A stretch of 64,000 nt of DNA, from assembly GCF_021249345.1 (NCBI RefSeq), contig NZ_CP089588.1, positions 1,364,001 through 1,428,000 of the forward strand, given 5' to 3'. The notes under the pieces are model-generated. The model made no database searches and was not told the origin of the DNA. It was given only the letters and a program-made list of their open reading frames with translations. Shown one piece after another: positions 27,510 to 29,207 of this stretch. A program made the position numbers and the translations under genes. This DNA is from Halobacterium wangiae. Lineage in GTDB: Archaea > Halobacteriota > Halobacteria > Halobacteriales > Halobacteriaceae. How positions within the stretch are numbered: the first letter of the stretch is position 1; each line of letters begins with the position of its first letter.

Positions 27510-28598
27510 ATGAACACGTCCCCTACCGGCCCTCGAAGAGCAGTCGTGCTCGCGCTCCTCGTCGCACTGTCGTTGCCCCTGTTCGCGGGCGTCGCGGCGG
27601 CCGACGAGCGCGCGGGCGGCACCGTCGTCGTCGAGGAGGGGGAGACGGTCACCGGCGGCCTGCAGGCGACGGCCGGCACCGTCGTGGTCCGGGGCACCGT
27701 CGAGGGGAACCTCGAAGCGTTCGCCGGCACGGTCGAGATCGCCGAGTCCGGCACCGTCACCGGGAACCTGGAGGGGGCGGCCGGCAACGTCCGCATCGCG
27801 GGCACCGTCGAGGGTAACGTGGAGGCCGCGGGCGGGAGTTTCGTCGTCGCCCAGTCTGGCACCGTCGGCGGCGACGTACAGGTCGGCGCCGGGTCGTTCT
27901 CGCTCGACGGCACCGTCGACGGGACGGTCCAGGTCGGCGCCGGCAGCATCTCGCTCGGCGAGAGCGCGGCCGTCGGCGGCGACTTCCTCTACGACGGCGA
28001 ACTCACCCGCGCCGAGGGTGCGACCATCGACGGCGAACTCCGCCAGGACTCCAGTCTCGGGTTCAGCACCGTGCCGCGGCTCTCCTGGGCCGCGGGGTGG
28101 GTGCTGACGCTGTACGGCATGCTGCTGACGCTGATCGTCGGCGCGCTGCTGTTGCTCGCGTTCCCCGGCACCTCCGCGGCCATCGCCGAGAGCACCATCA
28201 CGTCGCCGCTGCGCACGCTCGGGGTCGGCTTCCTCGCACTCCTCGCCGGACCGCTGCTGTTCGTCCTGCTGTTGCTGTCGATCGTCGGCATCCCGCTGGC
28301 GTTCCTGTGGCTGTTCGTCTTCGGACTGCTGCTGTTGCTGTCGTTCGTCTGGGGCGAGTACGCCGTCGGCGCGGCACTGCTCTCGCTGGTGAACTACGCG
28401 AACCGCTGGCTCGCGCTCGTCGTCGGCGTGGTCGTCGTCTTCCTCGTCGGTCGCGTCCCAATCGTCGGCGGTATCGTCGAGTTCCTCGTCCTCCTACTCG
28501 GCCTCGGTGGACTCGCACTCACCACCGTCTACTGGGGGCGCCGCCGTCGTCGGCGCGACACGAGTGAACCGATGCGGACGGGCACGGACGAGCGCTAA
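27510..28598 (+). CDS. bactofilin-domain protein with C-terminal membrane helices
   Basis: The 362-residue protein has a signal peptide (about 1-30), then a beta-helical bactofilin-like region (about 35-185) of repeated short units such as GTVEGNLEAFAGTVEIAESG, and finally at least four hydrophobic helices ending in a basic tail (WGRRRRRR). Bactofilins polymerise; here the polymerising part would face outside and be tied to the membrane, a layout seen in polymer-forming cytoskeletal-like proteins of haloarchaea. The role is unknown. It is the first gene of a short plus-strand run with the SAMP and acetyltransferase genes. Confidence 0.8.
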   Translation: MNTSPTGPRRAVVLALLVALSLPLFAGVAAADERAGGTVVVEEGETVTGGLQATAGTVVVRGTVEGNLEAFAGTVEIAESGTVTGNLEGAAGNVRIAGTVEGNVEAAGGSFVVAQSGTVGGDVQVGAGSFSLDGTVDGTVQVGAGSISLGESAAVGGDFLYDGELTRAEGATIDGELRQDSSLGFSTVPRLSWAAGWVLTLYGMLLTLIVGALLLLAFPGTSAAIAESTITSPLRTLGVGFLALLAGPLLFVLLLLSIVGIPLAFLWLFVFGLLLLLSFVWGEYAVGAALLSLVNYANRWLALVVGVVVVFLVGRVPIVGGIVEFLVLLLGLGGLALTTVYWGRRRRRRDTSEPMRTGTDER

Positions 28599-28636
28599 CC
28601 ACACGGCTGAAGGTCGCCCGTCGGCTACGCCACTGC

Positions 28637-28834
28637 ATGCAGGTGACCGTCGAGGTGGTCGGCGAGGACACCCACGAGTTCGACGTGACCGACGAGACGT
28701 ACGCCGACCTCCTCGAAGTAGTGGAGCTCAGCCCGCACGAGGTGTCGGTGATGGTCGAGGGGCGCCCGGTCCCCGAGGACCAGCCGGTCGACACCGACCA
28801 CGTGCGCGTGCTCAGACTCATCCGTGGCGGGTAG
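28637..28834 (+). CDS. SAMP2-type ubiquitin-like small archaeal modifier
   Basis: The 65-residue protein has a beta-grasp pattern (MQVTVEVVGEDTHEF ... VSVMVEGRPVPEDQ) and ends in the diglycine tail LRLIRGG. Such proteins are activated by an E1 (UbaA) and attached to proteins or used as sulfur carriers in tRNA thiolation. The nearest match from memory is Haloferax volcanii SAMP2. The protein contains no lysine at all: the position equivalent to the chain-forming Lys58 of that protein is Arg57 here. It overlaps the next gene by 11 bases. Confidence 0.87.
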   Translation: MQVTVEVVGEDTHEFDVTDETYADLLEVVELSPHEVSVMVEGRPVPEDQPVDTDHVRVLRLIRGG

Positions 28835-29207
28835 CGTCGACGTCCGGCCAGCGTCGACCCGCGACCACCTCGGTGTGATGCGGGTGCTCGACGGCGCGAA
28901 CCTCGAACTCTCCGCGACCACCGCCGCGGACCGTATCGACGCTGGCACGGTGTTCGTCGCGGACGACGACAACCGCATCGTCGGGGCGCTCGTCGCGATA
29001 TCCCGAGACGAGGGTGCTCACGTCGAGGCCGTGGCCGTCCGCCGGAAGCGGCGCGCGAGCGGCATCGGCTCCGCGCTCGTCGAGGCGGCGGCCGACCGGT
29101 GGACGCCGCTCACTGCGGACTTCGATCCTCCAGTCAAACCGTTCTACGACTCGCTGGGCTTCGACATCGAGCAGAACGGCGACCGCTACCGCGGCGTCCG
29201 CGACTGA
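28824..29207 (+). CDS. GNAT-family N-acetyltransferase
   Basis: The 127-residue protein has the acetyl-CoA-binding motif region VRRKRRASGIGSALVEAA (the RxxGIG variant of QxxGxG/A) and the final FYDSLGFDIE segment of GNAT enzymes. The substrate is unknown. The GTG at 28824 lies inside the end of the SAMP gene, an 11-base overlap, so both are made from one mRNA. The start could also be slightly later, but the first strand (VDVRPAS) needs this position. Confidence 0.82.
   Translation: MAGSVDVRPASTRDHLGVMRVLDGANLELSATTAADRIDAGTVFVADDDNRIVGALVAISRDEGAHVEAVAVRRKRRASGIGSALVEAAADRWTPLTADFDPPVKPFYDSLGFDIEQNGDRYRGVRD

Follow-up and report, generated by a model that had tools for sequence, protein, structure and literature searches.

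What can a protein modifier do in the cell if it contains no lysine itself? Haloferax is known to form SAMP2 chains linked through Lys58, often likened to polyubiquitin as its prokaryotic counterpart, and its NcsA bears apparent poly-SAMP2, Lys204 being a mapped site. The SAMP2 encoded in the DNA analyzed here (a stretch of 64,000 nucleotides from Halobacterium wangiae, hereafter the window) raises this question directly. The first-pass annotation, made from the letters alone, recognized the protein as a SAMP2 ending in GG, with Arg57 at the position of Haloferax Lys58 and no lysine in 65 residues, and concluded that homotypic lysine-linked SAMP2 chains are impossible. These readings were borne out by the profile matches and the alignment given below, whereas the interpretation built on them was supported only in part. 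The following features of the window are relevant:

27510-28598, same strand as samp2: membrane protein with a bactofilin domain (PF04519, 2.1e-14), the immediate upstream neighbor of samp2
28637..28834, + strand: samp2, encoding a SAMP2 orthologue of 65 aa that lacks lysine and terminates in VRVLRLIRGG
28824..29207, + strand: GNAT-family acetyltransferase gene (Pfam Acetyltransf_7, 1.9e-11), GTG start

The samp2 open reading frame, running from an ATG start to a TAG stop, encodes 65 residues (MQVTVEVVGEDTHEFDVTDETYADLLEVVELSPHEVSVMVEGRPVPEDQPVDTDHVRVLRLIRGG), none of them lysine, and its GC3 amounts to 94%. Judging from the matches to the Pfam SAMP2 profile (PF21965; 4.5e-30, 104.3 bits vs. 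a cut-off of 27) and to the NCBIfam SAMP2 equivalog (NF041919; 3.1e-33, 114.1 bits vs. a cut-off of 70, residues 1-65 on model positions 1-66), the gene is real and not a chance open reading frame. The stop codon immediately follows ...LIRGG, leaving the di-glycine (Gly64-Gly65) exposed, as needed for adenylation by UbaA. The closest characterized counterpart, SAMP2 of Haloferax volcanii (HVO_0202; solved structures 2L32 and 4HRS), belongs to the same family, also ends in GG and is 69% identical over the whole length; the Halobacterium protein is one residue shorter and possesses arginine in place of both lysines, i.e., Arg57 for Lys58 and Arg63 for Lys64. Usual start codons are not expected to give rise to an extended protein that would include a lysine, since no in-frame ATG, GTG or TTG occurs between the preceding stop at 28565 and the samp2 start. 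A longer frame with an upstream lysine was hence rejected for the usual starts; by sequence alone, a single in-frame CTG at 28607 remains.

The absence of lysine is by itself not surprising. The predicted genes of the window encode 1.45% lysine and 6.8% arginine, and at this lysine frequency the probability of finding none in 64 residues is 0.39; in line with this, 45% of random 65-residue stretches drawn from the window's proteins and 12 of its 61 predicted genes lack lysine. The lysine-free SAMP2 is therefore statistically unremarkable and lies near the chance expectation.

A survey of the orthologues gives a similar picture. SAMP2 is near-universal in the class (383 of 391 sampled genomes, nearly always as a single copy). 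The 220 SAMP2 sequences read represent eight families, albeit as an uneven sample that takes in all members of the window's family (Halobacteriaceae), selections from three further families and the top-scoring hits of the class-wide search. The residue at position 58 turned out to be threonine in 86 of them, arginine in 68, lysine in 39, glutamine in 17 and glutamate in 10, so general conservation of Lys58, with which the reasoning of the first-pass annotation stood or fell, does not hold. Lys58 is clustered in the family of Haloferax (f4, 25 of 52) and in f6 (8 of 9), with three cases each in f1 and f8. To judge from this distribution, SAMP2 cannot depend on Lys58 for its general function, because the protein is present in 383 of 391 genomes but the lysine only in 39 of 220 sequences. 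Sequences with no lysine at all make up 33 of the 220 (about one in seven, one sequence being partial) and occur in six of the eight families: 16 of 26 in Halobacteriaceae, six each in f2 and f8, three in f4 and one each in f3 and f9. In the genus Halobacterium, all 13 species have arginine at position 58 and 11 are lysine-free; the remaining two have one lysine each, in the helix (G010) or at position 64 (G007). With Lys58 in the minority and lysine-free SAMP2s both common and near the chance expectation, the special significance attached to the absence of lysine, real as it is, finds no support, and this absence does not speak for an unusual way of working. No report on a naturally lysine-free SAMP2 was found in a literature search covering few subscription journals.

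The less expected fact is found at position 64, just before the di-glycine, a site overlooked in the first-pass annotation. Lysine resides there in 176 of the 220 sequences; in the full-length set, it is present in 174 of 193 (90%) outside Halobacteriaceae vs. 2 of 26 inside, where the other 24 have lost it in favor of arginine (16), glutamine (7) or serine (1). The lineage-specific change in Halobacteriaceae, as far as the aligned sequences indicate, is hence located at position 64 and not at position 58. GC content as the sole cause of this loss was rejected: among loci with at least 70% GC, Lys64 is kept in 18 of 22 from other families vs. 1 of 19 from Halobacteriaceae. On a SAMP2 tree built with columns 58 and 64 left out, a minimum of 9 changes is required for Lys58, 19 for Lys64 and 16 for the lysine-free state, and the loss of Lys64 within Halobacteriaceae takes a minimum of 2, although such counts are rough for a short protein. 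As side observations, the SAMP2s of two Halobacterium loci (L023 and L025 from G012 and G013) and many f3 proteins harbor insertions of about nine residues or longer in the loop that precedes TYADLL, and a lysine is frequent in the VDVKGE motif of the f3 (Natrialbaceae-type) SAMP2s.

The potential partners of SAMP2 were sought in the whole genome, represented by a single contig of 3.11 Mb (99.9% complete). Protein and Pfam searches detected no second SAMP2 elsewhere in it, so there is no other, lysine-containing SAMP2 to do the work, an escape route that the first-pass annotation had provided for. SAMP1 is encoded at C1:800659-800922 (equivalog, 135 bits vs. a cut-off of 60) and has Lys4 as its only lysine. 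The genome also harbors equivalogs of UbaA (460 bits vs. 450), of the tRNA thiolase NcsA (627 bits vs. 500) and of desampylase (177 bits vs. 130), and encodes a second JAMM protein. Because SAMP1, UbaA, NcsA and desampylase all match above the equivalog cut-offs, the machinery known from Haloferax for SAMP2 sulfur transfer and conjugation is, by homology, present in Halobacterium. The predicted set of modifiers nevertheless differs from that of Haloferax in having no detectable SAMP3: SAMP1 is the only protein of the genome passing the ThiS-family cut-off, and SAMP3 was rejected as a chain carrier on this ground, a very divergent SAMP3 being possible. The Lys204 anchor of Haloferax NcsA aligns with a glutamate in NcsA of this genome; the position is lysine in two of the three aligned NcsA proteins of the genus Haloferax, and it was described as not well conserved (PMC4048286). 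With both the SAMP2 acceptor, Lys58 and possibly also Lys64, and the anchor lysine of NcsA absent, poly-SAMP2-NcsA of the Haloferax kind cannot exist here in the same form.

Collectively, these findings favor a Halobacterium SAMP2 that most likely operates, upon activation by UbaA, as a sulfur carrier for tRNA thiolation and as a mono-modifier forming no homotypic lysine-linked chains. By orthology with Haloferax, UbaA would adenylate the protein, and its C-terminal thiocarboxylate would donate sulfur for the NcsA-dependent 2-thiolation of the tRNA wobble uridine. On the same basis, SAMP2 would be attached through Gly65 to target lysines, and desampylase would reverse this isopeptide conjugation. 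A SAMP2 lacking its own lysine forms no homotypic lysine-linked chains and is thus expected to be attached as a single unit; beyond this, it could only act as the terminal unit on Lys4 of SAMP1. Chemistry excludes a lysine-linked SAMP2-SAMP2 bond as well as attachment of SAMP1 to a SAMP2 lysine; attachment of SAMP2 to Lys4 of SAMP1 is possible. The first-pass annotation, which allowed a conjugated protein to be a single modifier or to use the N-terminus only, overlooked this mixed linkage. The papers found report no conjugates of Halobacterium SAMP2, and single-modifier use alongside sulfur carriage is what we infer from the Haloferax system. Conjugation could differ if Lys64 had a role in the recognition of UbaA or of the target that arginine cannot fill. 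A comparable dual function, sulfur carrier and modifier, is displayed by a distant relative, the eukaryotic Urm1.

Published work includes an engineered Haloferax SAMP2 (K58R/K64R, "K>R"), a laboratory mutant with the same two substitutions that occur naturally in the Halobacterium protein, most of whose genus is lysine-free; this mutant still formed robust conjugates and yielded a single modified form of NcsA with no ladder (PMC4048286). It bears first on the suggestion that SAMP2 now serves Halobacterium for sulfur transfer only, its lysines being lost because conjugation was lost. Both SAMP2 lysines are indeed absent, Lys64 is gone from 24 of 26 Halobacteriaceae, and Lys204 of NcsA is not conserved in Halobacterium; still, this suggestion seems unlikely, as lysines of the modifier are needed for chains and not for conjugation, which the mutant demonstrates, and the genome still encodes an equivalog of desampylase, an enzyme known for removing conjugated SAMPs (though it could serve SAMP1). 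Sulfur carriage alone, offered as a fallback in the first-pass annotation, is therefore not implied by the absence of lysine.

Chains of another kind, built head-to-tail on the N-terminal amine, on serine or threonine, or as mixed chains via Lys4 of SAMP1, appear quite improbable. The single lysine of SAMP1 would suit the mixed variety, and linear linkages are at least processable, given that SAMP1 in linear fusions can be cut by the haloarchaeal desampylase exactly behind the GG (PMC4443979), but the lysine-free Haloferax SAMP2 built no ladder on NcsA, and Haloferax has no predicted E2 or E3 homologues that might steer linkages of this type (PMC4048286). The least probable proposition, that lysine was removed in Halobacteriaceae by selection against chains, can draw on the 16 lysine-free proteins of 26 and on the Lys64 contrast persisting at matched GC, but is likewise quite improbable considering that 39% of such proteins would be lysine-free anyway at 1.45% lysine, that several members of the family tolerate a lysine at 58, at 64 or in the helix, and that the counts are not independent, two changes at minimum accounting for the Lys64 loss.

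The sequence survey has a bearing on the view of archaeal chains. About four fifths of the sampled haloarchaeal SAMP2s lack Lys58, so homotypic chains through this residue cannot be common to sampylation in haloarchaea at large; together with the many species that have no SAMP2 lysine at all, this suggests that lysine-linked SAMP2 chains are a lineage trait. Tentatively, and as a possibility that we would not yet call probable, homotypic lysine chains may have arisen late, in some haloarchaeal lineages, the majority of SAMP2s being used for mono-modification and sulfur transfer and Halobacterium being naturally chain-free. If true, proteasomal targeting in Halobacterium, if any, must work without SAMP2 chains. 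The species of this genus, some of them experimentally tractable, provide a natural setting for asking if proteolysis can be directed by sampylation when homotypic chains are lacking. Among the relatives, poly-urmylation was not seen in eukaryotes, and the archaeal Urm1 of Saccharolobus forms chains on six of its seven lysines (PMC12625751).

The genomic neighborhood of samp2 is conserved as well. The GNAT gene begins 11 bases before the end of samp2, to which it is likely translationally coupled; it follows samp2 in all 26 Halobacteriaceae loci and in most haloarchaea sampled, a linkage already listed in 2010 (Makarova & Koonin 2010, PMC2948915). In one locus (L336 781-1536, genome G095), SAMP2 and GNAT constitute one open frame (...LRLVKGG-GTAGVDD...), as opposed to the separate overlapping genes of the window; its neighbors resemble the window's, with a replication-factor-C-like gene upstream (in another frame) and a phosphomannomutase-like gene downstream.

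Fusions of another type were encountered in other haloarchaea, where SAMP2 continues in frame, with no stop after GG, into a peroxiredoxin-like protein. They occur in f6 (Halorussus-type; L037, L044, L045, L055 and L057), in f4 (L036, L202, L203, L204 and L214) and in further loci (L062, L063, L066, L069, L070, L072, L073 and L082), e.g., the L037 product combines the PF21965 and AhpC/TSA (PF00578) domains. No report of such a fusion in haloarchaea was found in the literature. By their architecture, these proteins look like ubiquitin-style fusion precursors requiring cleavage by a JAMM protease; in other species, a peroxiredoxin gene lies directly downstream of samp2. Altogether, 52 of the 220 SAMP2 frames (L009, L016 and L017 among them) run past GG, so that C-terminal trimming would precede activation of the extended forms; in 42 of the 52, the extension as read is shorter than 60 residues, two of these 42 being fusions that exceed the stretch read.
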